The position numbers and the translations under genes are program-made. Shown here piece after piece: positions 1,075 through 20,174 of a stretch of 21,454 bases of DNA. Source of the stretch: a candidate division TA06 bacterium SM23_40 (lineage in GTDB: Bacteria > LJUI01 > SM1-40); contig LJUI01000053.1 of assembly GCA_001303705.1 (NCBI GenBank), forward strand, positions 1 through 21,454. Reading direction: 5' to 3'. The notes under the pieces are model-generated. The model searched no databases and was not told the DNA's origin. It saw only the letters and a list, made by a program, of their open reading frames with translations. Position 1 is the first letter of the stretch, and every line of letters begins with the position of its first letter.

Positions 1075-2769
1075 TTACCCAACATATCCAAGCCCCCTCA
1101 GCATCTCCTCAACCTTATCTTCCTCCTGATCCGAGTAGGAGAAGCGCCTCTCGGCTCCCGTCCCAGGAATATCCTGTGGCTCCTCGGAGGCGGGCGGATG
1201 GTCACGCAGGTACTCGTCCCTGATACCTCCCTCCAGAATGCGACCGTCCATGTCGCCGGGGACCGGCAGACCCATCAGATAGAGGATAGTGGGCGCTATA
1301 TCAACGATCTTTGCCCCCTGGAGCCGTCTGTTCTGTCCGGTCGCCGGCCCGGCCATGATGATCATCCCGTTCAACCGGTGTGTCGCGCAATGGTGATAGG
1401 CCGGCTTCTGGAGCACAGGTCCGACCGTAGGATCGTTGCGCGGAACATACCGCAGTCCTTTCAGGAGGTAGATGATATCGGGCGCACCTTCGACATATGG
1501 ACCGGCGTACAACTCCTCCCGCCGCTTGACCAGCTCCACGATGGGCGTCCCGTCGGAACCATTCGTGAGGCAGGCGAGCCGCTCGATGATCGAGTCACGA
1601 AGCCGCTCATACTCTTCGCCGGGCGTGACGATCCCCTCTCGCTCCCTCCCCGCGACATTGAGAACGATACTCCCGCCGCAGCCACCGATAAGCGGGGCAT
1701 AGGCCACAGTGCGGCCCCAATCTATATGCGCGAGGCGATCCCGTCTGCGACGCGGAAGACGGGGATGCATGCGTCTCATCGATCCCGGGACGAGGCGCCC
1801 GATACGCCCGAGCCGGCGGCCGCGCAGTATATCCTCCAGCGTCTTCGTTGTCCGGCGGACCTGGTAGCGCGGAAGACGGCCCACCCGCCGCAGCCGGAGC
1901 AACCCCTCTTTCATCAGCCACCTGTTGCAGAAGAAGTAGTGGCTGAACGGACCCGCCCCATGATCAGACATGACGACGACGGAGACATCCTCTCCCACCT
2001 TCTCCAATATCTTCTCTATGGCTCGGTCCACAGCTCGGTACATCTGTGGTATGACAGAATCGTACTTAGCAGACTCCTCGGGGTTGAGTCGACGGTATTC
2101 CTCGTTCCAGAATCTCCACGCGGTGTGCTGCACGATGTCTGTGGCACGAAAGACAACGGCCGCCAGATCCCAATCATGGTTCGTGAGGAGATATATCGCG
2201 GTCTCCATCTTTCTCCTCACATTACCGAACATGTGCTCGAGGCACTCGATCGGCCCAAGTTTGCCGCGCACATAGGAGGGCACGATCTGGTCCTCGAACG
2301 GATACTGACCGACATGGGCCACGATCTCTGCGTGAAGTTCGGGCGGCATCGTGATGATGGTCTCTCTGGACGGGGCGAGAAAGGTAGCGATCATCAGGCC
2401 ATTGATCCGCCAGGGAGGGAAGGTCATCGGGACATCGATGACGATGGAGCGACGGTCCTTTGAACCGGCGATATCCCAGAGAGTTGGGGCACTGATCGAT
2501 CGCGACGTCGCGACAGGCCAATCGTACGTCTCCGGCTCGCGCACACGAAAGCCATACACGCCGTGCTTCCCTGGACTCTTGCCGGTCATGAACGAGGTCC
2601 AGGCAGGCCCCGTCATCGGAGGAATGGTCGATTCGAGCTCGCCCCACGCACCTTGCTCCATGAGGCGGGCCAGCGTAGGGACGAGGCCTTGCTCGATCAG
2701 CGGCCCGATGACATCGAATGTGCCGCCATCGAGTCCGAAGATGACCAATCTATTCCTCTGCCTACTCAC
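1075..2769 (-). CDS. AlkP-superfamily phosphohydrolase/phosphomutase-like enzyme 1 (COG3379 type)
   Basis: 564 aa from a GTG start preceded by GGAGG at 7 nt spacing. There is no signal peptide: the first strand of the catalytic fold starts at residue 8, so the enzyme is probably cytosolic. Metal and catalytic residues fall in the order expected for the nucleotide pyrophosphatase/phosphodiesterase branch of the alkaline phosphatase superfamily: Asp14 in FGLDGG, nucleophile Thr53 in PPMTGPAW, Asp211 and His215 in DIVQH, Asp269-His270 in SDHGAG, His464 in ATHRLNG. A long insert with a basic, Arg-rich patch (about 295-345) lies between the fourth and fifth motifs. After the catalytic domain (about 1-515) comes a variable linker, then a 19-residue acidic tail (YSDQEEDKV...LGYV) shared with neighbouring enzymes. 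The substrate is unknown: phosphodiester, phosphomonoester or sulfate ester hydrolysis, or group transfer, are all possible in this superfamily. Confidence 0.9.
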   Translation of the reverse strand: MSRQRNRLVIFGLDGGTFDVIGPLIEQGLVPTLARLMEQGAWGELESTIPPMTGPAWTSFMTGKSPGKHGVYGFRVREPETYDWPVATSRSISAPTLWDIAGSKDRRSIVIDVPMTFPPWRINGLMIATFLAPSRETIITMPPELHAEIVAHVGQYPFEDQIVPSYVRGKLGPIECLEHMFGNVRRKMETAIYLLTNHDWDLAAVVFRATDIVQHTAWRFWNEEYRRLNPEESAKYDSVIPQMYRAVDRAIEKILEKVGEDVSVVVMSDHGAGPFSHYFFCNRWLMKEGLLRLRRVGRLPRYQVRRTTKTLEDILRGRRLGRIGRLVPGSMRRMHPRLPRRRRDRLAHIDWGRTVAYAPLIGGCGGSIVLNVAGREREGIVTPGEEYERLRDSIIERLACLTNGSDGTPIVELVKRREELYAGPYVEGAPDIIYLLKGLRYVPRNDPTVGPVLQKPAYHHCATHRLNGMIIMAGPATGQNRRLQGAKIVDIAPTILYLMGLPVPGDMDGRILEGGIRDEYLRDHPPASEEPQDIPGTGAERRFSYSDQEEDKVEEMLRGLGYVG

Positions 2770-2870: not shown

Positions 2871-4556
2871 CTAGCCGAGATATCCCAATTCGCCGAGGTC
2901 CCTCTTGATGCGCCGACGTTCCTCTTGTGAGAAGACCTCCCGGGCGGTATCTGCCTCACCTGCCGGCTCTTCTTTTGCCACAGACCACCGTTCCGGATGC
3001 CGGGCCGCATACTCCTCGCGCAGCGCCCCGGTCAGTACGGCCCCGTCCATGTCGGAGGGGATCTCCATTTCCAGTAAATGCAGGACCGTCGGTGCCAGGT
3101 CCACGATCTGCGCTTCCGCCAACTCAAATCCACTTCTGATGGCAGGCCCCCTCATCATGAGGACGCCTTCCATACGATGCATGCCCAGTCGCTCCTCATC
3201 CGGCTCAGTGATCAGCGCGCGGGCATACGGTAGTACCTGACAGCGGAACTTATGATCGGTCGTCAAGAACGTGATATCCGGAGCCTTGTGTGCCAGGGGC
3301 CCGGTATAGATATCCTCCGGCACCCAGACCTGAGAGATCACCGGCTCGCCTGTTGCAGGATCCCGCAGGGAGCGCAGGCCCTCAATGATCTCCCGGCGCA
3401 GCCTCTCACGCTCTTCTCGTCCCACCTGCTTTCCCCGCTTTCCGAGACTCGGAGTGTTGATGGTGATCTTTATGGGACTCGACACAACGTTCGCAAACGC
3501 CCGGGTGCGGGACCAGTTGACAATCTGTGTCCGATCGCGGCGCAATCGGGGAAAGGGTAGCCTGACGTCACCCAGACGTGCGGGGAGCGCGCGGCCCACC
3601 GCCGCCAGGCCGAGCTTGTCCAGCGCCGCCCGGATCGCGGCCCACCTCACATGAAGCCGGAGAGTCGCAACTGACGGCCATGGCTTCAGTGCGAGGAACC
3701 CTTCATTGTGCAGCCACTTGTTGACATGGAAGCACCGCTTGACCGGGCCAGCACCGTGATCGGACATGATCACCGCCGTTGTACCATCGCCGACGGCGTC
3801 GAGCAATTCGGCAACAACTCCATCGAGAACCTCATAGTACTGATCGATCATCTTGTGGTACATCGCCGTCTCATGCGGGCGTTCGCGCCTATACTCCTCA
3901 TCCGTGTACCGAAAGCCATAGTGCTGAATGACGTCCGGCCCGCGAAACACCACCGCGAAGAAGTCGACGTCATACTTCCTCAGCAGATAGAGAGCTGCCT
4001 GCTTCCGCTTCTCTGTATGGTCGCAGACGCTCCTCAGACCGCCGAGAATGTCGCCGGCGGCGAACGATCCAACGAGCTCCCGCTCCATTGGATAAGAACC
4101 GATCTCCTTGAGCAGATCGGTCTGAAGTGTGGCAGGATAGGTGAATTCGCTCTCCTGCGACGGCGTGAACATTCCCGCAACCATGTACCCGTTGACAGGG
4201 GTGGGCGGGAATGTCATCGGGATATCGATCACCCCGACACGCATACCGCGCTCGCCGATCAGGTCCCAGAGCGTCTTCCCCTGCACCCAGGTAGCATTCG
4301 GCCACAACACTTCCTTGTCGGCGCCAACACAGATCATATCGAATACGCCGTGTTTGCCCGGGTTCTTCCCGGTCATGAACGAGGCCCAGGCAGGCGGCGT
4401 CACTGGCGGCACGGTCGACTGGAGTACTCCCCATGTCCCCTCTTCCATGAACCGACGGAATGTCGGCAGTCGCCCTGCCTCTGCCAAAGGGCGTATAATG
4501 TCGAGGGTGGCTCCGTCCAGACCTATGACCAGTACCTTAACGTTCCTCCCGGCCAC
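2871..4556 (-). CDS. AlkP-superfamily phosphohydrolase/phosphomutase-like enzyme 2 (COG3379 type)
   Basis: 561 aa from the GTG at 4556. I prefer this to the longer GTG at 4622 because GGAGAGGAG lies about 9 nt upstream, and because it puts the first metal ligand at residue 14, exactly as in enzyme 1. The longer start would overlap the preceding gene by 19 nt. All signature residues are present: Asp14 in GLDGAT, nucleophile Thr53 in PPVTPPAW, Asp208/His212 in DVIQH, Asp266-His267 in SDHGAG, and the final His in MHRMEG. No signal peptide. The C-terminus ends in the shared tail (FSQEERRRI...LGELGYLG). It sits 47 nt downstream of enzyme 3 and 101 nt upstream of enzyme 1. Equal length and motif spacing to enzyme 1 suggest a relatively close duplicate. 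The substrate is unknown. Confidence 0.88.
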   Translation of the reverse strand: MAGRNVKVLVIGLDGATLDIIRPLAEAGRLPTFRRFMEEGTWGVLQSTVPPVTPPAWASFMTGKNPGKHGVFDMICVGADKEVLWPNATWVQGKTLWDLIGERGMRVGVIDIPMTFPPTPVNGYMVAGMFTPSQESEFTYPATLQTDLLKEIGSYPMERELVGSFAAGDILGGLRSVCDHTEKRKQAALYLLRKYDVDFFAVVFRGPDVIQHYGFRYTDEEYRRERPHETAMYHKMIDQYYEVLDGVVAELLDAVGDGTTAVIMSDHGAGPVKRCFHVNKWLHNEGFLALKPWPSVATLRLHVRWAAIRAALDKLGLAAVGRALPARLGDVRLPFPRLRRDRTQIVNWSRTRAFANVVSSPIKITINTPSLGKRGKQVGREERERLRREIIEGLRSLRDPATGEPVISQVWVPEDIYTGPLAHKAPDITFLTTDHKFRCQVLPYARALITEPDEERLGMHRMEGVLMMRGPAIRSGFELAEAQIVDLAPTVLHLLEMEIPSDMDGAVLTGALREEYAARHPERWSVAKEEPAGEADTAREVFSQEERRRIKRDLGELGYLG

Positions 4557-4603
4557 GCTCTCGGTCTCCTCTCCCTGAAGGGAGCCATCAACGAGATCCA
4601 GAT

Positions 4604-6301
4604 CTATCCCAGATATCCCCACCCACGGAGTCGCTCGCGGACCTCCTCAGCCTCTTCCTCGCTCACCGCCTCCCGTTCCTCGCGCGCCTCAGTGGCTGCC
4701 ACACCTCGCTCCTCGTACACCACCGGATGGTGCGCCCGATACGACGGGGTCATGGCCTCCTCGAGCGGTCGTCCCTCCATCGCCTCGGGGACGGGAACGC
4801 CCAGGAGATGGAGTACTGTCGGCGCCACGTCCACAATCTTGGCTCCGTCCAGCCGTGCACCGGCCTCGACCCCCTCACCCATCACAAGCAATATCCCCTC
4901 CTCGCGGTGCGATCCCGAGTGCCACCGCTCCGTCTCGATGAGATGACGGGGATAGATGTAATCAGTCAGCTTGCAGCCATAATCTTCTGCGCGCACGATC
5001 AGATCCGGTGAAGACCCGCTCTGCTCGCCCCTGAACACTTCTTCCTTTCGGTACACACGATCTACGACCTGCTCACCCGTCTGCGGATCCCGCAGCGCGA
5101 GCAGACCGCGTTCGATCTCCTCGCAGACTTTGCGGTACTCTCCGTCCGGTTCGACAATGCCTTCCGGCTCACGACCGCGCACATTGACGTAGATGGCTTG
5201 CTCCGCGAGGCTTCCCCCATAGGCGCGCGTCCGTGCCCAGTCTATGACCTTGTACGGATTGATCGCTTTGCGCGGATCCAGATCCTTCCAATTCCCACCT
5301 CGTAGCCCGGGGAAAAGCCGCCGTGTCGTGAAGTACCGCACCCCCATCTTCGACAGCAACTTGTAGAGGATTGCGGGGAGCCGGATCCGCCACAGAGGAT
5401 AGGAAATCGGACGCAGGCGCAACAGGCCCTGTTGTCGCAGCCAGACGTTCATATGGAACATCTTGGTGTTGGGCCCTGCCCCGTGATCAGAAAGGACGAC
5501 GACAGTCGTCCCCTCTCCTGCGCGATCGATGATCTCCCCGAGTGCGGTATCGAGGAATTCGTAGAATCCGTGTATCACGCCGCCGTACCGCTCTGCGAGC
5601 ACTGAATCAAAGGCCGGGTGCGCCCGATCCATGTACTTCCAGAAGAAGTGCTGAACGCGATCTAGAGAAATGAAGACAGCAGTAAGGAGATCCCATTCGT
5701 AGCGATCCATCAGGTAGAGCGTAGCCTGCTTCCTCTGCTCCTCAACACGATAGAACTTCTCGATCAATTCCTCTTTCTCATCCGTGAAGAAGAAGGGTAG
5801 CGTATCGACCTCGGGAAGATAGCTTCCAAGCCGACCGCGCACTTCGTCGAGGAGCCCCGGCGGATGGGTGGCGGTCTCGCGCCTCAGCCCTGCGGCGCCC
5901 ATGAAGCCGGGAAGGACGAACCCATCGATCACTTCGGGCGGATAGGTGAAGGGAACGTTGATCGCTCCCACGCGCCTCCCATTGCGGCTGGCCACTCCAA
6001 ACAGGCTCTCCCCCCGCATGGTGAGACGGCTCGTCACCTCCCGCCGGAATCTGCCGCGCAGCGGGCCGAAAAACCCGAAGATCCCGTGGCTTCCCGGGTT
6101 CTTCCCGGTGAGAAACGATGCCCACGCAGGTGCCGAGAAGGGGGGTACTGTCGAGCGCAGTCTCCCCCACGCCCCCCCTTCCATCATGCGTGCGAAGGTC
6201 GGCAGCTTGCTATCCGCTACGAGTGGTTCTATGACGTCGAAGGTGGCTGAGTCGAATCCAATGACGAGCACCTTCCTGCCAGTTCGCCCCTGCTCCGCCA
6301 A
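4604..6301 (-). CDS. AlkP-superfamily phosphohydrolase/phosphomutase-like enzyme 3, Ser nucleophile (COG3379 type)
   Basis: 565 aa from a TTG at 6301, which follows AGGAGAAAGGA at good spacing. The alternative is a GTG at 6346, abutting the previous stop codon but with a poor ribosome binding site; it would add 15 residues. Motifs: Asp17 in GFDSAT, Ser56 in PPFSAPAW where enzymes 1, 2, 4 and 6 have Thr, Asp214/His218 in DRVQH, Asp272-His273 in SDHGAG, and the late His in GSHREEG. Ser at the nucleophile position is tolerated in the superfamily, where classical alkaline phosphatase uses Ser, so activity is expected but specificity may differ. The C-terminus is very acidic and ends in the shared tail with Trp replacing the first Leu (RGWGYLG). 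No signal peptide. It lies 45 nt downstream of enzyme 4. Confidence 0.87.
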   Translation of the reverse strand: MAEQGRTGRKVLVIGFDSATFDVIEPLVADSKLPTFARMMEGGAWGRLRSTVPPFSAPAWASFLTGKNPGSHGIFGFFGPLRGRFRREVTSRLTMRGESLFGVASRNGRRVGAINVPFTYPPEVIDGFVLPGFMGAAGLRRETATHPPGLLDEVRGRLGSYLPEVDTLPFFFTDEKEELIEKFYRVEEQRKQATLYLMDRYEWDLLTAVFISLDRVQHFFWKYMDRAHPAFDSVLAERYGGVIHGFYEFLDTALGEIIDRAGEGTTVVVLSDHGAGPNTKMFHMNVWLRQQGLLRLRPISYPLWRIRLPAILYKLLSKMGVRYFTTRRLFPGLRGGNWKDLDPRKAINPYKVIDWARTRAYGGSLAEQAIYVNVRGREPEGIVEPDGEYRKVCEEIERGLLALRDPQTGEQVVDRVYRKEEVFRGEQSGSSPDLIVRAEDYGCKLTDYIYPRHLIETERWHSGSHREEGILLVMGEGVEAGARLDGAKIVDVAPTVLHLLGVPVPEAMEGRPLEEAMTPSYRAHHPVVYEERGVAATEAREEREAVSEEEAEEVRERLRGWGYLG

Positions 6302-6346
6302 GATTTCCTTTCTCCTCCATGCCAGCACGCCGAGCTCGGGGCTCAC

Positions 6347-7969
6347 CTAATCGAGATACCCCAGGCCTGCAAGCTGTCTCATTATGGCTTCCTCTTCGTC
6401 CTTCCTATATCCTCTCTCCTCGAGGTCGATCCTCGCAATCTCGGCCTCCGTCACCTTCACTTCCCTGCTTCTGAGCAGCTCCTCATCGAGCCCCTCTATC
6501 AGGACGCGACCGTCCATAGCGGCCGGGACCGGCAGTCCGAGGAGGTAGAGGAGCGTCGGAGCGATGTCGACCAGAGATGCCTTCTCGAATCGAGCGCCGG
6601 ACGCTGCGTGCGGCCCGGCAGCGATCAATATGCCGTCCATCCGGTGTGTTCCGCCCGTCTGGGTGGTGAAGAGCTCCCGGCACGTCGGCCTATTGTGCTG
6701 TTGATACCTCATCTCCTTCATCTGAAATAGTATATCAGGGGCCAGCTCCGCGAATTCGCCACAATAGACCTCCTCTCGGAACGAGATCGTATCGACCACA
6801 CACTCGCCAGTCTCTAGATCGACCAGCCGTTCGAGCTCGCTCGCGATGCGGCGGCGCAGGTCCCCGTACTCACCACCCCCACTCGCCGCCCCTGCCCCGC
6901 CGTCACGCACATTGATATAGATGCCGAAGTTCCCCGCAAAGGCATCGCTCTTCTCCCAGTCGATCCCGTTCCCGCCCGTGCGAAGCATCGGCAACCGGAC
7001 GACGATCCCCTGGAACCGGTCCGGAAGTCTGGCCGCCAGCCCGCCGAACCCGCATCGCGAAAGAATCCTGCCCACCGTCGCCCGCCTTACCGCCAGCCCC
7101 GCTCCAATCCCCGGCCAGCGGGGCTTCGCATAGCAGAGAAATCCGTGCTCGTTGAGCCAACGGGTGGTGCAGAAGGCTTTGTCGAGATCCCCGAAGCCAT
7201 GATCTGACATCACGAGGACGGTTGTCTCGTCACCGACCTTTGCCATCAATTCGCCAATCCACCGATCGACTGTACGATATGCCTCGGGTATCGCCTCCTC
7301 GAGAGCGCCGCCATGTCGGTAGTGACTCCAACACAGGTGCTGAATCCGGTCGGTCAGTCCGTACACCACGACGAACAGATCCCATTCATCTCGATCGATG
7401 AGATAGGTTGCCGCACGGTGTCGCTGCTCTTCGATCCCCCGGTACCTCCGCGTCCACTCGTTCAGATCGACAGGTACTCCCCGCGGCGGATTCTGCTCCA
7501 GCGGATACTCGCCGAGCGCATTCTCTAACGCAGAGAGAAGTGCGGGCGGATGGACGAAAGCATCGTCCTTTGTCGGCGCGGGCACGCCGGAGATCATGCA
7601 TCCTCGGATCGGCCAACAGGGATAGGTGACCGGCACGTTGATGGCCACAGTGCGCCCGCCGGCCCGGTCGACGATCTCCCAGATAGTAGGCGACTTGATG
7701 GAACGAGATGTTATGAGATGGCGCACTCCACGCCTGATAGCATCGGGAGAGAGCTCGGAGAAGTTGAATATCCCATGCTTCCCCGGATTGACGCCAGTCA
7801 TGAACGACACCCACGCCGGCGCGGTGACCGGGGGAATTGACGATTCGAGGGTACCACGTGCCCCCCGATCGAGCACCCGTGCCATGTTGGGAAGCTCGCC
7901 CCGCGCGACCATCGGATCGATCACATCGAATGTCGCGCCATCGAGCCCGATCACAACTGCCCGATCCAC
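6347..7969 (-). CDS. AlkP-superfamily phosphohydrolase/phosphomutase-like enzyme 4 (COG3379 type)
   Basis: 540 aa from the GTG at 7969, chosen because a near-perfect GGAGGTGA stands 8 nt upstream. An open frame continues upstream to a TTG at 8029, but that start has no comparable site. Signature residues: Asp10 in GLDGAT, nucleophile Thr49 in PPVTAPAW, Asp207/His211 in DRIQH, Asp256-His257 in SDHGFG, and the last His in GTHRMDG. It lacks a signal peptide and should act in the cytosol. The tail after the catalytic domain is shorter than in enzymes 1-3 but keeps the shared ending, with Asp as last residue (LAGLGYLD). It is separated from enzyme 5 by 99 nt holding a small hairpin and a TATAAA element. 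The substrate is unknown. Confidence 0.88.
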   Translation of the reverse strand: MDRAVVIGLDGATFDVIDPMVARGELPNMARVLDRGARGTLESSIPPVTAPAWVSFMTGVNPGKHGIFNFSELSPDAIRRGVRHLITSRSIKSPTIWEIVDRAGGRTVAINVPVTYPCWPIRGCMISGVPAPTKDDAFVHPPALLSALENALGEYPLEQNPPRGVPVDLNEWTRRYRGIEEQRHRAATYLIDRDEWDLFVVVYGLTDRIQHLCWSHYRHGGALEEAIPEAYRTVDRWIGELMAKVGDETTVLVMSDHGFGDLDKAFCTTRWLNEHGFLCYAKPRWPGIGAGLAVRRATVGRILSRCGFGGLAARLPDRFQGIVVRLPMLRTGGNGIDWEKSDAFAGNFGIYINVRDGGAGAASGGGEYGDLRRRIASELERLVDLETGECVVDTISFREEVYCGEFAELAPDILFQMKEMRYQQHNRPTCRELFTTQTGGTHRMDGILIAAGPHAASGARFEKASLVDIAPTLLYLLGLPVPAAMDGRVLIEGLDEELLRSREVKVTEAEIARIDLEERGYRKDEEEAIMRQLAGLGYLD

Positions 7970-8012
7970 CGTTCTCGTCACCTCCCACAGGCCGTCGACA
8001 CCGTGGATTCTC

Positions 8013-8030
8013 GTTGCCGGAAGAGGCAAC
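8013..8030 (-). promoter_or_regulatory. Short hairpin in the gap between AlkP-like genes 5 and 4
   Basis: GTTGCC and GGCAAC form a 6-bp stem with a 6-nt loop. A TATAAA element lies just upstream on the minus strand, but no good -35 box stands at the right distance. It could be a leader structure of an internal promoter or a processing site. Weak evidence. Confidence 0.2.
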
Positions 8031-8068: not shown

Positions 8069-9424
8069 TCAGTCGACGAGGGACCGCCCGTCCACATCTG
8101 ACGGAATGGGCACCCTGAGCAGGGAAAGCACGGTCGGCATCACATCGACGATCGAGAACTCGTCACGCGTGATCTCTTCTCCTCTGATGAATAGAAACGC
8201 ATCCTCAAAGGTGTGCATCCCGACAAGCTCTCCCTTATGCGTCAGCTCGGGCCTGTTCAGCGCTCCCTTCAGATCGTAGCCCCTCCGGGGTACGGCAATC
8301 AGATCCGGCGCCGCGTCGAATGAATCACCGAAATATATCTCCTCTCTCTTCACAACCTTCTCGATCATCTGTTCGCCACTGTCGGGATCAGTCAGCTCGG
8401 CGAGTCCCTCGGCGAGCTCGGCCCGCACCCTTTCGTACTCATCCCCCGGTGCCACGCTCCCCTTCGGCTCCCTCCCACGAAGATTCACATAGATGCGACC
8501 CGGGTCGAGGCTGAACGCCCGGGACCGCTCGTCGATCTCCTTGATGGACTGCTCGTTCTGATTATCGAAGACGAGCCATCCCCCATCGACAAGCCAATGG
8601 TTGATGTACACTTCCTTCTTCAGGGTGCAGAATCCATGGTCCGAGAGCACTGCCAACGTTGTTCTCCCATCGAGTCGGGAGACCAGGCCCGCGATCATCT
8701 CATCGATCTTCCGGTAGTAATCAAGAAATGCGGCAGCGTACGGCCCTTCACCAAGCTCCATCTGTTCCCAGAGAAAGTGATTGATCCTGTCCGTGCCCAT
8801 GAAGTGGGTCATGAAGAAGTCCCACTCTTCGTGTTCCATGAGGTAGAACATCGTCGCCGCCCGTCTCGACAAGACTTCGTTGAGGTCATCCAGAAACGGC
8901 GTCTTGTCCTTCTCCCTTCCCTTCCATGGATCGACATCGATGCGATATCCGAGTTCCGAGAGTTTCCGCGCGAGCTGCCGAGGATACGTTGCCTTGTTGA
9001 GGTCCGGGGACAGAAAGCAGCCGACGAGGAAGCCGTTAACCTCGCGAGGCGGATACGTCACGGGAACGTTCATCACACCCACGCGTCTGCCGGTCCGCCC
9101 GATCACCTCCCACAGCGTGTCGCTCTTCATATCGGTGGAGAGCGGTATGTAGGTATCATAGGTTCGAGGCCGCCGATCCTGGAATCCGTATATGTTGTGT
9201 TTCCCCGGATTCTTCCCTGTCATGAACGACGACCACGCCACCGAGGAAACGGTAGGCAGCACGGAGTTCATCCGCTTCCACGAACCATCCCCGAACAGGC
9301 GACCGAGATGGGAGAAGACACTCTCTCCGATCATCCTGTTGACAAACGAATAGGGCACCCCATCGAGGCCCACAACCACCACACGTCTCTTTCCTCCTCT
9401 CCGCAATCCTCCCAGAAATCGCAT
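8069..9424 (-). CDS. AlkP-superfamily phosphohydrolase-like enzyme 5, short form without C-terminal tail
   Basis: 451 aa from an ATG with GAGGAG upstream. About 90-130 residues shorter than enzymes 1-4: the insert after the SDHG motif is compact, and the protein ends at the close of the catalytic domain (DVDGRSLVD), with no acidic LGY tail. Motifs are complete: Asp21 in GLDGVP, Ser60 as nucleophile in LPTVSSVAW, Asp212/His216 in DRINH, Asp262-His263 in SDHGFC, late His in GMHTFED. The N-terminus is basic (two Arg/Lys-Gly runs before the first strand) but has no hydrophobic core, so it is probably cytosolic. It lies 89 nt downstream of cysC. Together with enzyme 6 it forms a second, shorter subgroup. 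The substrate is unknown. Confidence 0.87.
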   Translation of the reverse strand: MRFLGGLRRGGKRRVVVVGLDGVPYSFVNRMIGESVFSHLGRLFGDGSWKRMNSVLPTVSSVAWSSFMTGKNPGKHNIYGFQDRRPRTYDTYIPLSTDMKSDTLWEVIGRTGRRVGVMNVPVTYPPREVNGFLVGCFLSPDLNKATYPRQLARKLSELGYRIDVDPWKGREKDKTPFLDDLNEVLSRRAATMFYLMEHEEWDFFMTHFMGTDRINHFLWEQMELGEGPYAAAFLDYYRKIDEMIAGLVSRLDGRTTLAVLSDHGFCTLKKEVYINHWLVDGGWLVFDNQNEQSIKEIDERSRAFSLDPGRIYVNLRGREPKGSVAPGDEYERVRAELAEGLAELTDPDSGEQMIEKVVKREEIYFGDSFDAAPDLIAVPRRGYDLKGALNRPELTHKGELVGMHTFEDAFLFIRGEEITRDEFSIVDVMPTVLSLLRVPIPSDVDGRSLVD

Positions 9425-9513: not shown

Positions 9514-10131
9514 CTAGAGATACCCGAGGTTTGTCAATCGTTCCTTGACTTTCTCCTCCTCCTCCTTGGTATAGACTCCCTCTCCGCCTTCGGCCGTCTC
9601 CCCCTCCCCGAGGTACCCGAGCTCACGCAGCTTAGCCATCACCTTCTGCGCACTCTCCCCGGGAGCCTCTTTGTCAGTATCGACGACTACCTCCGGGGCG
9701 AGCGGCTCTTCATATGGATCGTCTATCCCTGTGAATCCCTGTATCTCACCGGCGCGGGCCTTCTTGTACATGCCCTTCACATCCCTCTGCTCGCATACCT
9801 CCACCGGGCAGCGGACATACACCTCCACGAAATTACCGATCTCCATACGCGCGTGGTCGCGGATCGCCCGATAGGGTGAGATCGCAGCGGCGATGGTGGC
9901 AGCGCCGTTTCGGGTGAGGAGCTTGCAGACAAACGCGATCCGCTTGATGTTCGTATCCCGGTCCTCTTTGCTGAAGCCCAGTCCCTTGCTCAGGTTTGTG
10001 CGCACCACGTCGCCATCCAACACTTCGACGTTTCGACCGGTCGCTCGGATCTCTTTCTCCACGATCTGCGAGACGGTTGTCTTGCCCGAACACGGCAACC
10101 CGGTGAACCAGACAGTGAACCCCTTGGCCAT
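9514..10131 (-). CDS. cysC: Adenylyl-sulfate (APS) kinase with an added C-terminal LGYL tail
   Basis: 205 aa, ATG start with AAAGGAG 6 nt upstream. It phosphorylates APS with ATP to give PAPS, the universal sulfate donor. Evidence: P-loop GLPCSGKTT at 11-19, the DGD motif at 39-41, the [16 protein letters not shown] segment at 50-65, the SPYRAIRD segment at 85-92, and the [14 protein letters not shown](Q)[10 protein letters not shown] region at about 117-141 that binds APS. The usual APS kinase fold ends at about residue 174 (KLRELGYLG). Then follow about 12 Gly/Glu-rich residues and an extra 19-residue segment (187-205) that matches the tails of the neighbouring AlkP-like enzymes. It lies 22 nt downstream of enzyme 6, in the same operon as sat. 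No sulfate-reduction genes are seen, so PAPS is more likely used for sulfation. Confidence 0.93.
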
Positions 10132-10153: not shown

Positions 10154-11542
10154 TCAACTGATGGCCTTCCCTTCCATATCGCCGGGGATATCGATACCTA
10201 ACAGACTGAGGACTGTCGGCCCGCAATCTACGATGTGCAACCCCTCGAGCCTGCCCTTCGGCGCTCCATCCGGATTGTGCATGATGAAGATGCCGTACTC
10301 CGCGTGGTTCGCGTCGTCCGGGCCGGTATCGTTCTCAAAGGTATGCACGGTATCGAGGCCGATGCTCCCCACCGACCGCCAATCGAGATCGCCGAAGTAG
10401 ACGATGAGATCTGGAGGAATCCCCTTCACCTCTGAATAGATCTCCTGAGGCCTGAAGACGCGCGTTCCGATATTGCGCCCCTCGGGATCTTCGATCGCCT
10501 CCAACTTCTCCTTCAGCTCATCCCGCACCTTCTCGTAGTCCTGAGGAGCAATGATGCCGGCCGGCTCCCGATTCTTCACGTTCAGGAACAGCCGGCCGTA
10601 GTAACCTCCATCCCCCCAAGCCATGGTATTCGCCCAGTCTATATCGTCCGGCTCGAGCCGTCGGACCCGGTCCGGCCTCTTCTTCAGGCGGAGATAGCCC
10701 TCCCGGATCAGCCACTCATTGAAACAGATGCCGCCATCCATCTTCTTGGCGCCATGATCGGATACGACCATTACCGCGGTGCGATCATCGACGAGATCGA
10801 GTGTCTTGCCGACCTCGTCGTCCACATACCGGTAGTAGTCGAGGATGGCAGACTCATAGCGTGACCCTCGTTGGTACTTCGGATGCTCTGTGTCGAAGTA
10901 CTTCCAGAATCCATGGTGTATCCTGTCGATTCCCATGTCGACCACCATGAAGAAGTCCCATGGCTTCTTTCGCATAAGGTATCTCGTCAACTCGAACCGG
11001 TTGGCTGTCATCTCGTAGATCTGCTTCAGCAGGGAATCTTTGTCGTCTGTGCGGAAGTTGTCTACGTCGAGGATATATCCGCCAATTGCTTCATTGATCT
11101 CCTGCTTCAGGCTTGCCGGATAGGTGTACTCGCTGTCAGTACTCGGCGTGAGGAAGCACGTCACCAGGTACCCATTGACTGGTTTGGGCGGATAGGTCTG
11201 AGGCACACCCAGGACCACCACGTCCCTGCCGTGACGCGACAGGATATCCCAGACTGCATCCTCCCTCACCAGCGTCGAATTGGCGAAAACAAGCTTGCTG
11301 TATGAGTAGTCGCCCCGGTTTCGGAAGCCATAGAATCCAAGCCTTCCCGGATTCTTGCTCGTCATCATTGACGTCCACGCAGGGACAGTGATCGGCGGCA
11401 CGATCGTCTGGAGTGGTCCGTACGCCCCTCGCGCCATCACACTGCTGAGGTTCGGGAGCCGATCCCGCCACCGATCGAAGACAAGCTGCGGAGTGGCACA
11501 GTCCAGTCCGATCACAAGAACCCTCTTCGTTTCACTTCCCAT
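10154..11542 (-). CDS. AlkP-superfamily phosphohydrolase-like enzyme 6, short form, between sat and cysC
   Basis: 462 aa, ATG start with GGAGGTCA 7 nt upstream. Motifs: Asp14 in GLDCAT (Cys where the others have Gly or Ser), nucleophile Thr52 in PPITVPAW, Asp206/His210 in DRIHH, Asp262-His263 in SDHGAK, late His in ANHAEYG. The otherwise frequent TGK after the nucleophile helix is TSK here. The protein stops right after the catalytic domain (DMEGKAIS), so it lacks the shared tail, although the next gene, cysC, has it. Its place between the two PAPS-forming genes (33 nt after sat, 22 nt before cysC) makes it the family member most likely to act on a sulfate-activation intermediate or by-product such as APS, PAPS or PAP. 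That role is inferred from position only. No signal peptide. Confidence 0.88.
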
Positions 11543-11575: not shown

Positions 11576-12736
11576 TCACAATTGCTGATAGTATTCGCGG
11601 AGTATCTCCACAACCTCCGGCCGCGAGAATTCCACCGGCAGATCCTCACCCTTCTTGAGGAGCTCACGAACCTTCGTGCCGCTCAGGTACACGTGATCGG
11701 ACTCTTTGTGAGGACACGTCTTGAACGAAGCCATAGTCTGACATCTCTTGCAATAGAATGCGTTGTCGAAAAAGAGCGGCCTGATACCCAATTCCTCTTC
11801 GGTGAAGTCGTCGAATATCTTCTGGGCATCGAATGGGCCGTAGTACTTCCCGACGCCCGCGTGGTCGCGGCCGACGATGAAGTGGGTGCAGCCATAGTTC
11901 TTCCGCATGATCGAATGGAAGATCGCCTCCATGGGACCGGCGTAGCGCATCGCAGCCGGCAGCACGATGAGCGCCGTCCTGTCCCCTGGATAGTAACCCT
12001 CGAGCAAGACCTCATAGCATCGCATGCGGACCTCGGCCGGGATGTCATCCTTTTTCGTCTCCCCGACAAGAGGATGAAGCAGGAGGCCGTCGCATATCTC
12101 CAGGGCACACTTCTGTATATATTCGTGAGCCCGATGGACCGGATTTCTCGTCTGGAAGCCCACAACCGTCTCCCAGCCCTTCGACCTGAACAGCTCCCTC
12201 GATTGGGCGGGATCGAGCCGATACTTCTTGAAGTCGTCGTGCCGCGGCCTCTCGAGAACAGTAACCTTACCGCCCAGCGTGATCTCTGCTGTCTCATACA
12301 GGCGAGCAACCCCGGGATGATTGGCATCGGTCGTCCCGAAGACCGCCTGCGCCTCCTCCTCTCTATTCCGTCTATAGACGTCCTCCACCTCGATAATGCC
12401 GAGGCGCTTCCCGGTGTCATCGACCAGGGCTACATCCACTCCCTCCTTAATCTTGGCCGCCTCCTCCTGCGTCGCTGAGAGCGTGATCGGAATGGTCCAG
12501 ACAGTCCCGTCGACAAGGCGGTGCTCTCTCACCACTGTACGGTAGTCCTTCTCACACATGTAGCCCTCGAGAGGGCTGAATCCTCCGATGGCGAGCAGCT
12601 CGAGATCCGAGAGTTCGGTGCCCTTCAAACGGATCGCAGGCAGCTCACCAATGCGCGCACTCAGCCCCTCCCGAGCCTCACCATCGACCAGTCGGTTGAC
12701 TAATTTCCCACCGTGTGGCGAGATCTGCTCGTGCAT
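11576..12736 (-). CDS. sat: Sulfate adenylyltransferase (ATP sulfurylase), homo-oligomeric Sat/Met3 type
   Basis: 386 aa. It makes APS and pyrophosphate from ATP and sulfate, the first step of sulfate activation. The chosen ATG at 12736 has GGAGGAAG directly upstream; an open frame extends to 12799 but encodes an atypical N-terminus. Signatures: the catalytic [10 protein letters not shown] loop at 195-204 (HxxH nucleotidyltransferase motif) and GRDHAGVG at 289-296. Near the C-terminus C329-x2-C332-x8-C341-P-H343 resembles the zinc-binding knot known from thermophilic and many bacterial ATP sulfurylases. There is no fused APS-kinase domain; a separate cysC follows two genes later. This is the single-subunit family, distinct from the CysD/CysN heterodimer. 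It lies 63 nt after the lipoprotein gene and 33 nt before AlkP-like enzyme 6. Confidence 0.95.
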
Positions 12737-12799
12737 CGTCTTCCTCCACACTGTCAGGAGCGGACGCTGACCCGCGGCTGCCCTACAGCAGCGCCGCAA

Positions 12800-17948: not shown

Positions 17949-20174
17949 TCATCGATAACCGAGGCCAGAAGGGTCCCTTCCGGTATGTCGTACATCCTCG
18001 ACCACCGCTCTCTGCTCTGATTCCGGGACTGGACGGAGATAGATCTCCCAATTCCCATCACGATTGTCCTGCCAGGCAACGAACGCCTGGCCATCGGCGA
18101 CGTCGATTGCGGGGTTGATGGAGAGCATAGTTCCCGCTGAGAGCGCCGCTTCTGTGCTCCACGTATCGCCTCCGTCCGTGCTCTCCTTCCAGAAGATCTC
18201 CCCCCTCCCTGACTCGTAGTCCGTCCAGACGATCCAGAGGTGTTGCCCGGAACAGGCCAGCCGTGGAGAGAGCGCTCCCTCCGCCGAATTCGTCAACTGC
18301 TCGGCCGTCAGCCAGGTGTCCCCACCGTCGGTGCTCTTCCGAAACAGAATCTGCCACTTCTCATCCACTTGCTCGGACCAGACCGCGTAGGCAGTCGTGT
18401 CGTCGACGGCGATGTCGGACAGCCGGGATGCCTCGGCTGACTGACTCAGATTCTCCTCATGCACCCAGGTCGCACCACCATCAGTACTCCTCGTATAGTA
18501 CGTCTCCCAATTCTCATCGACAAAACTGGTGTAAACGGCATGTATCGCGGCACCTCCGTGGCCAACGCCTCCCGGCTGAGCATGGCACAACTCCAGCACT
18601 TCCCTGGCGCGGATCATGGTATCCCATGTCACGCCGGTATCGCTCGATGCGACGAATGCCGGCTGCATCGCCTTCTGCCTCTGGGGATGTTTGGGCAGGC
18701 CTGTGACGAAGCAAGCAACGTCCCCGCCCGATGCCGCCATGGTAGGGAAGAAAGTGCCGTACTTCTCGGGCGTCAGGTGAGCCGGCTCGGACCAGTTGAG
18801 CCCGCTGTCGGTGCTCCGGCTATGCCGGAGCTCCCAATCCAACGTCGTCGGCGACCCCGGTCTGATTACGAACTCGACCCAGGCGAGATGGAGCACGCCT
18901 GCATCTACCGCAAGCAGCGGCGCTATCGCATACGCATCGACGAGCAGGGTGTCGGGCGACCACGTATTCCCCCCATCGGCGCTCTGCTTGAAGTAGATGT
19001 GAGAAAGCCCATCTCGGGTGTCAGCCCATGCAACATACAGGCTCTCTCCATCACAGGCAAAACTCGGCGACTCGGAACGCGCGCCGTCGTCGGTGAGCCG
19101 CGCCTCATCGAGCCGCCCCATGGAGGATCCGTTCCGATCGAGCGCGGGTTCTCCGATCCAGCGACCTGGAATGAACATCTCGTCCATCACGCCCCCCTGA
19201 GCATATGGCGTATCGATGCCCATGAGGGCGGCGATCGTTGTGCAGATGTCGATGTGATCATGGGCAACGGTCACCACTTCATCGGCCATGACATCCGGAC
19301 CCAGCCCGAGGAAGATGAGGCGCCGGCTGCCGATATCCGACTTCGTATGATGGTGGTAGTCGGCCTGATCGCGCCCGTGGTCGGTGGTGAGCAACATCGT
19401 CGTCTTGTCTTTGTAATACGTATCGGTATACGGCGGGATCGCCTGTATCTTCTTCCAGAACTCGAAGATCAGTGAGTCGACGTGCTCGATCGCCGCGATG
19501 TACTCGTCCCAGTTCCGGTGCCCACCCAGATCGACAGCAAAGAAATTGACCATCATGAGGTCCGGCCGCTCATCGTCCATCACCTGCTGAACCCACGCCC
19601 AGACCGTATCGTCCTCGGCATGCAGGGAGTCGGCGTCATACCGCAAGTACGCCCCAAGGCTGTCGCCATACGTGGGATAGAGGCTCCGGTCCAGATCACG
19701 CAGGACACCATTGCCGGTCAGGATCCAGCATCTGTTCCGCGGAGCGCCGGTCTGCTTCCGATAAAGCTCGAACAGGGTCGGGTACAGCGGCAGATCTGTG
19801 TCCGGCGGATTCCAATGATTGTTCGGGGCCCACCCATCGAGCCGGTTCCCATTGAGCATGAGACCATGGGATGGCGTCGACTGCGTCTTCAGGGTGTTGT
19901 ACAGATTCTTGTACATCGTCCCATGGGGAACGAGGCTATCCCAGATGACCGGGATATGCTGGTGTGTCGGGTCCCCAAAGGATTCACTCCAACGCAGGCC
20001 GTCGATCACCACGAGAAAGACGTATTCCGTCAGGAACTCGTCTGCGGCGTGCGCTCCCCGAAGGGGAACGATGAGCCACACAATACCGAATGTCAGCATC
20101 GCAATGGCTCTCCACGCGCGCCGGGCACCACTTCTCGTCACCCGTTCGACTGTCATTTGCATCTTGCTATACAC
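17949..20174 (-). CDS. Secreted AlkP-superfamily hydrolase fused to BNR/Asp-box repeats
   Basis: 741 aa from a GTG with AAGGAG 8 nt upstream. An N-terminal basic stretch and a hydrophobic core ending AHA|AD (about residue 44) form a signal peptide, so unlike the other AlkP-like enzymes this one is exported. The catalytic domain (about 48-340) has Asp58 in VVIDGLRW, a Thr nucleophile near 97-100 in KTQSTPSHG, Asp215/His219 in VDLGGH, Asp265-His266 in TTDHGRD, and a later His pair near 305-307. It is closer to sulfatase/phosphodiesterase-like proteins than to the cytosolic six. From about 365 to 720 come six Asp-box motifs: SADGGNTW, STDSGLNW, SSDTGVTW, STDGGATW, and STDGGDTW twice. These are typical of sialidase-like propellers and may bind glycans. 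It could remove phosphate or sulfate esters from surface glycans. The upstream leader contains a 16-bp tandem repeat. Confidence 0.85.
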   Translation of the reverse strand: MYSKMQMTVERVTRSGARRAWRAIAMLTFGIVWLIVPLRGAHAADEFLTEYVFLVVIDGLRWSESFGDPTHQHIPVIWDSLVPHGTMYKNLYNTLKTQSTPSHGLMLNGNRLDGWAPNNHWNPPDTDLPLYPTLFELYRKQTGAPRNRCWILTGNGVLRDLDRSLYPTYGDSLGAYLRYDADSLHAEDDTVWAWVQQVMDDERPDLMMVNFFAVDLGGHRNWDEYIAAIEHVDSLIFEFWKKIQAIPPYTDTYYKDKTTMLLTTDHGRDQADYHHHTKSDIGSRRLIFLGLGPDVMADEVVTVAHDHIDICTTIAALMGIDTPYAQGGVMDEMFIPGRWIGEPALDRNGSSMGRLDEARLTDDGARSESPSFACDGESLYVAWADTRDGLSHIYFKQSADGGNTWSPDTLLVDAYAIAPLLAVDAGVLHLAWVEFVIRPGSPTTLDWELRHSRSTDSGLNWSEPAHLTPEKYGTFFPTMAASGGDVACFVTGLPKHPQRQKAMQPAFVASSDTGVTWDTMIRAREVLELCHAQPGGVGHGGAAIHAVYTSFVDENWETYYTRSTDGGATWVHEENLSQSAEASRLSDIAVDDTTAYAVWSEQVDEKWQILFRKSTDGGDTWLTAEQLTNSAEGALSPRLACSGQHLWIVWTDYESGRGEIFWKESTDGGDTWSTEAALSAGTMLSINPAIDVADGQAFVAWQDNRDGNWEIYLRPVPESEQRAVVEDVRHTGRDPSGLGYR

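Follow-up and report, generated by a model that had tools for sequence, protein, structure and literature searches.

Why should an APS kinase and several AlkP-like enzymes, proteins of unrelated folds, end in the same short peptide? The question is raised by a minus-strand operon in the window, that is, the whole stretch of 21,454 nucleotides analyzed here, which encodes six AlkP-like enzymes of the PF01663 family together with the APS kinase CysC and the ATP sulfurylase Sat. A sequence-only reading of this DNA had described a common tail at the ends of enzymes 1 to 4 and of CysC, and had proposed that it is a portable peptide that docks these enzymes on a common scaffold. We located the five tails at the C-termini where they had been reported, all on the minus strand. 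The features of the operon are listed below.

1075-2769, minus strand: AlkP-like enzyme 1, PF01663, 564 aa, tailed (profile match)
1081-1137, minus strand: tail of enzyme 1, YSDQEEDKVEEMLRGLGYV (profile; AlphaFold helix), followed by G and the stop codon at 1075-1080
1138-1179, minus strand: linker preceding the tail of enzyme 1, about residues 531-544 (low pLDDT)
2871-4622, minus strand: AlkP-like enzyme 2, PF01663, with tail FSQEERRRIKRDLGELGYL at 2877-2933
4604-6346, minus strand: AlkP-like enzyme 3, PF01663, with tail VSEEEAEEVRERLRGWGYL at 4610-4666
6347-8029, minus strand: AlkP-like enzyme 4, PF01663, with tail YRKDEEEAIMRQLAGLGYL at 6353-6409
8069-9424, minus strand: AlkP-like enzyme 5, PF01663, without tail
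9517-9573, minus strand: tail of CysC, at its extreme C-terminus (profile; AlphaFold helix, residues 189-202)
9574-9609, minus strand: disordered linker of CysC, residues 175-186 (pLDDT below 50 at 178-185)
9610-10131, minus strand: complete APS-kinase domain of CysC, residues 1-174 (PF01583, 2e-64)
10154-11542, minus strand: AlkP-like enzyme 6, PF01663, without tail
11576-12799, minus strand: ATP sulfurylase (Sat), without tail (PF01747, 4e-100)

As called, the gene of enzyme 2 shares 19 bases (window 4604-4622) with that of enzyme 3, and the latter abuts the gene of enzyme 4, an arrangement that suggests one transcript. Elsewhere in the window, positions 17949-20174 encode a protein of 741 residues, whose N-terminal part is AlkP/sulfatase-like and which also has BNR repeats.

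The tail as a module of CysC and the AlkP-like enzymes

All six AlkP-like enzymes match PF01663 at 131-178 bits, against a curated cut-off of 23, and the conserved metal-site residues D14, D211, H215, D269, H270 and H464 are invariant among them. The catalytic fold and the conserved Asp and His residues are thus those of the PF01663 type I phosphodiesterases; the nearest solved folds to enzyme 1 are phosphonoacetate hydrolase and Xac NPP, at a sequence identity of only ~12-16%. Unlike enzymes 1 to 4, none of the solved AlkP-superfamily chains carries the tail, and a search for it in PDB chains at large found none, the only matches being weak ones to ribosomal L13, L7/L12, Skp1 and similar proteins.

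The tail follows the approximate consensus [YF][ST]xEEEx[IV]xxRLxxLGY[LIV], after which the chain ends within 0-2 residues. The identity of enzyme 1 and CysC at 10 of 19 tail positions, given in the earlier reading, was reproduced, and the same count was obtained for CysC against enzyme 3 and against enzyme 4. Because none of 20,000 composition-preserving shuffles equalled the identity between enzyme 1 and CysC, the tail is real and not a product of chance. Two details had been missed: enzymes 5 and 6 have no tail, and one residue (G or D) lies beyond the motif in enzymes 1 to 4. The peptide is built as a helix with a Ser/Thr N-cap, an acidic start, a hydrophobic face of I10, L14 and L17, and a Gly-Tyr-Leu/Ile end; L14, G18 and Y19 are invariant across all carrier classes counted, and position 17 is Leu except in a few AlkP tails. 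Its roughly 20 residues cannot tell common descent from convergence.

In CysC, the PF01583 profile is covered at 152 of 152 positions (2e-64) and the P-loop GLPCSGKTT is intact, so residues 1-174 form a normal APS kinase (PF01583, NF002059). Solved APS kinases align with residues 3-174 and end there, and they lack the 31-residue, tail-bearing extension that follows the kinase. A second, weaker LGYL is found at window 9610-9651, where the last kinase helix ends LRELGYL; this copy is the normal APS-kinase end, since the solved kinases align exactly up to it. Among tailed CysC proteins the L..LGY of the tail is invariant, while the LGYL copy of the core drifts. In the AlphaFold model, pLDDT is 90-98 over most of the core and lower in some loops, falls below 50 in the linker at residues 178-185, and is 83-87 in a separate helix at residues 189-202. 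Enzyme 1 is similarly organized, with a core mostly above 90, pLDDT of 59-74 in blocks 531-550 and below 50 at residues 538-541, and a tail predicted as a separate helix (residues 547-559) behind the low-confidence linker. Linker lengths of 4-18 residues in tailed CysC homologues agree with the earlier description of a linker of varied length before the tail. Untailed proteins make up the majority of the CysC loci compared. The alignment limit at residue 174, this untailed majority and the separate helix behind a linker show that the tail is no normal part of an APS kinase and lies outside the kinase fold; an outcome that would have refuted the original proposal did not occur.

Within 32 tailed CysC proteins the tail carries 3.15 bits per column, against 3.39 in the core and 1.48 in the linker, the tail value being partly ascertained because the rows were selected for having a tail. 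On a tree of 102 CysC proteins, 12 tail changes are needed, at least four of which are forced by well-supported branches; the tail was gained or lost several times. Two CysC remnants (L171:4556-4975 and L174:about 3560-3979), ~139 residues long, have lost ~60 residues and have no P-loop, and they keep the tail; this retention argues that the tail has a function beyond that of the kinase. Aminicenantes and one Acidobacterium have, between kinase and tail, a segment that is ribbon-helix-helix (RHH)-like by resemblance, with no Pfam match.

Carriers of the tail and their gene neighbourhoods

Genome-wide work was done by profile searches. The organism's own genome (G000, candidate division TA06 bacterium SM23_40, about 90% complete) is the only representative of its phylum in our genome collection, and its six-frame search returned the five window tails as the five best matches (E 4e-9 to 2e-7). 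After these came the ends of other AlkP-superfamily proteins, three of them on contig C59, then C50 and, further down, C88 and C62. In this genome the profile search found the tail on AlkP-superfamily proteins and CysC only, and found no RHH or DUF2061 carrier.

When the profile was applied to 386 genomes of other groups, 78 were matched at E 0.01 or better; among the C-termini read, from 10,279 ORFs, 129 distinct ones matched. These comprise 49 CysC proteins (a few of which, such as L047 and L102, match by the kinase's own LGYL ending only), 35 AlkP-like enzymes and about 35 RHH-like mini-proteins; the remainder are sulfatases, the membrane protein type DUF2061, the pair of CysC remnants, two CysD-like proteins and a single plainly unrelated match, ribosomal L7/L12. 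At least five unrelated protein families thus end in the tail, across many bacterial phyla. Eight genomes of one further phylum gave the same carriers again, namely CysC, AlkP, sulfatase-like, RHH-A, RHH-B and DUF2061 proteins. The CysD-like matches (L169, L172) were set aside as probably ordinary CysD C-termini, which presumably end in GYF or similar. The earlier reading had thought the sharing with APS kinase unusual; the sharing holds, and it is no local oddity, since it recurs across many phyla.

Some carriers are small. The RHH-like mini-proteins, of roughly 60-100 residues, consist of little beyond an RHH-like domain and the tail, and fall into two types with the patterns VTIKIPRPLY...FIVYVLRDLV (RHH-A) and MFGGxKIKL...EFITHALEKEL (RHH-B). 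RHH-A matches RHH_1 (PF01402) weakly, at 0.0002 to 0.0057; the RHH-B protein tested had no Pfam match, and its type is named by resemblance. Compared with CopG-type RHH proteins (PF01402), RHH-A is weakly alike but carries the enzyme tail and occurs in sulfate-activation operons. Among tailed DUF2061 proteins (PF09834), L160 and L176 are confirmed by Pfam, and L209, L212 and L220 are assigned by resemblance. Within the AlkP-like proteins, the tail is present in 19 of the 20 that come nearest to enzymes 1 to 4 and have 500-640 residues, and in none of 28 enzyme-5 type or 33 enzyme-6 type proteins.

The carriers also keep company with one another. Several phyla show the gene order RHH-A-tail, Sat, enzyme-6 type, CysC-tail and enzyme-5 type. 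Often the series continues with two larger AlkP-like proteins, RHH-B-tail and a protein of 272 residues that has no Pfam match and resembles a membrane protein. Of 33 small tailed proteins, 31 have an AlkP gene within 3 kb, as do 30 of 40 CysC matches; about a quarter of the tailed CysC loci lack one. An enzyme-5 type gene was found within 4 kb of 21/32 tailed and 0/45 untailed CysC genes (Fisher 3e-11), an association limited by relatedness to only four phylogenetically independent contrasts, of which two to three agree and none opposes; the corresponding counts for the enzyme-6 type are 24/32 and 6/45. At L176, DUF2061-tail is followed by the enzyme-5 type and then by a CysD-like and a CysN-like protein, so that the position next to enzyme 5 is occupied by a tailed DUF2061 protein instead of CysC. 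With carriers confined to few classes and a strong neighbourhood signal with AlkP genes, the profile matches are not the random C-termini that would have spoken against the original proposal.

Two other gene products were observed at such loci. A protein of ~270 residues repeatedly adjoins RHH-B (L035:16450-17268, L181:3015-3839, L190:6-830 and L163:4053-4853); it is apparently membrane-bound, and its L035 copy has no Pfam match. A predicted PHP-domain phosphoesterase lies between Sat and the enzyme-6 type at L183:1764-2651 and L184:14270-15160. Known substrates of PHP-domain phosphoesterases include 3',5'-bisphosphate nucleotides, and for this reason the protein might recycle PAP.

A proposed docking helix and the alternatives

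With moderate confidence, we take the tail to be a portable docking helix at the C-terminus that gathers its carriers at a common partner. One short motif is found on unrelated folds, behind a flexible linker and within one pathway or neighbourhood. The portable part of the earlier proposal is well borne out by the five or more unrelated families, the variable linker, the core-level conservation and the repeated gain or loss on the CysC tree; its docking part is the reading that fits best, and both the binding by the tail and the single partner for all carriers are what we infer. In the proposed mechanism, the tail helix, by way of its flexible linker, would dock to the common partner the sulfate-activating CysC, whose operon also encodes Sat, as well as AlkP-like enzymes, RHH mini-proteins and, in certain lineages, DUF2061 proteins, and through this docking PAPS would be made next to the AlkP-like enzymes. 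Since AlkP-superfamily proteins are either tailed themselves or adjoin a carrier, an AlkP surface is our first candidate for the partner. Our best guess is the untailed enzymes 5 and 6, which would receive the tail in trans, since the enzyme-5 type has tailed CysC and, at L176, tailed DUF2061 as its immediate neighbour. An obligatory scaffold of RHH proteins is excluded, because no RHH carrier was found in the organism's own genome.

The main rival to a docking helix is self-association, in which the tail helices would bundle and join all carriers without a dedicated receptor, the RHH mini-proteins serving as multivalent hubs. RHH proteins are dimers by family, both mini-protein types are barely more than an RHH-like domain with a tail, some CysC proteins carry an RHH-like segment just ahead of the tail, and no receptor family was found. 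The tail helix is moreover amphipathic, with a mean moment above that of shuffled sequences in every class; the excess is modest, however, and the invariant Gly-Tyr at the chain end suggests recognition of an end rather than a coiled coil. RHH proteins are, in addition, missing from the matches in the organism's own genome, and we regard self-association as unlikely. Degradation and functionless copying are less likely still. A C-degron or quality-control signal common to co-regulated proteins would agree with a hydrophobic C-terminus that is exposed behind a flexible linker, with 0-2 residues after the motif, but C-degrons usually need only a short stretch, and the conservation of the N-cap, the acidic run, I10 and L14 extends far past it; since the carriers also group by pathway and AlkP neighbours, a degron seems very unlikely to us. 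Just as improbable, in our view, is an ordinary C-terminal element of the AlkP superfamily that was recombined onto neighbouring genes with no shared function. Nearly all AlkP-like enzymes of the 500-640-residue class do have the tail (19/20), and sulfatases carry it too, but in tailed CysC its conservation is on the level of the core, the CysC remnants retain it, the model of enzyme 1 shows it as a helix of its own, and it is seen again on RHH and DUF2061 proteins of different phyla.

Known cargo peptides offer the closest parallel to a docking helix. Microcompartment encapsulation peptides are short terminal amphipathic helices on a linker. Like the tail, they are flexibly linked to unrelated enzymes of one pathway; the tail differs from them in sequence and is also carried by small RHH and membrane proteins. 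Encapsulin cargo-loading peptides share with it the character of a portable C-terminal tag on unrelated cargo proteins, but differ in sequence and anatomy, and encapsulin is absent from 18/20 tail-rich genomes. Bacterial microcompartment encapsulation peptides are treated in PMC11157265 and PMC7221423. Despite the similar anatomy, we give next to no credence to a cargo-loading peptide for microcompartments or encapsulins: the organism's own genome has neither a BMC shell protein (PF00936) nor an encapsulin (PF04454), and among the 20 tail-rich genomes shell proteins occur in 8 and encapsulin in 2. This explanation is excluded for the organism itself and rejected, for lack of shell genes, for most carriers. 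The tail works like known cargo peptides and belongs to none of them. In the literature searched we found no paper describing the motif, none on such an operon, and nothing useful on DUF2061.

Sulfate activation and the meaning of the tail

The proposed docking helix may bear on the use of activated sulfate. In 6 of the 20 tail-rich genomes (G000, G272, G219, G077, G103 and G040, drafts that are 86-96% complete), no match was found to the PAPS sulfotransferase families PF13469 and PF00685 or to PAPS reductase (PF01507); a search with PF03567 carries no weight, as it matched none of the control genomes. Judged from their genes, Sat and the tailed CysC should make PAPS in these six genomes, and given the missing PF13469, PF00685 and PF01507, nothing else recognised there would consume it. 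The absence of PAPS consumers is a lead and not a result, because the genomes are drafts and other sulfotransferase families are possible. A further-reaching picture, which we consider quite unlikely as it stands, is a phylum-spanning cytoplasmic sulfation system in which the tail would hold a Sat/CysC complex for PAPS and AlkP types 5 and 6 would act as a non-classical sulfotransferase or PAPS-dependent transferase.

The tag probably holds an undescribed sulfate-using enzyme system together. It points to PAPS use in bacteria where the common PAPS consumers were not found, and a single 19-residue motif links an APS kinase, AlkP-like enzymes, sulfatases, RHH mini-proteins and a membrane protein across phyla. 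The tail may also be a portable tag for building enzyme assemblies. As a handle on so far unnamed proteins, it indicates that its carriers belong together, and their common partner could be sought by one pull-down.
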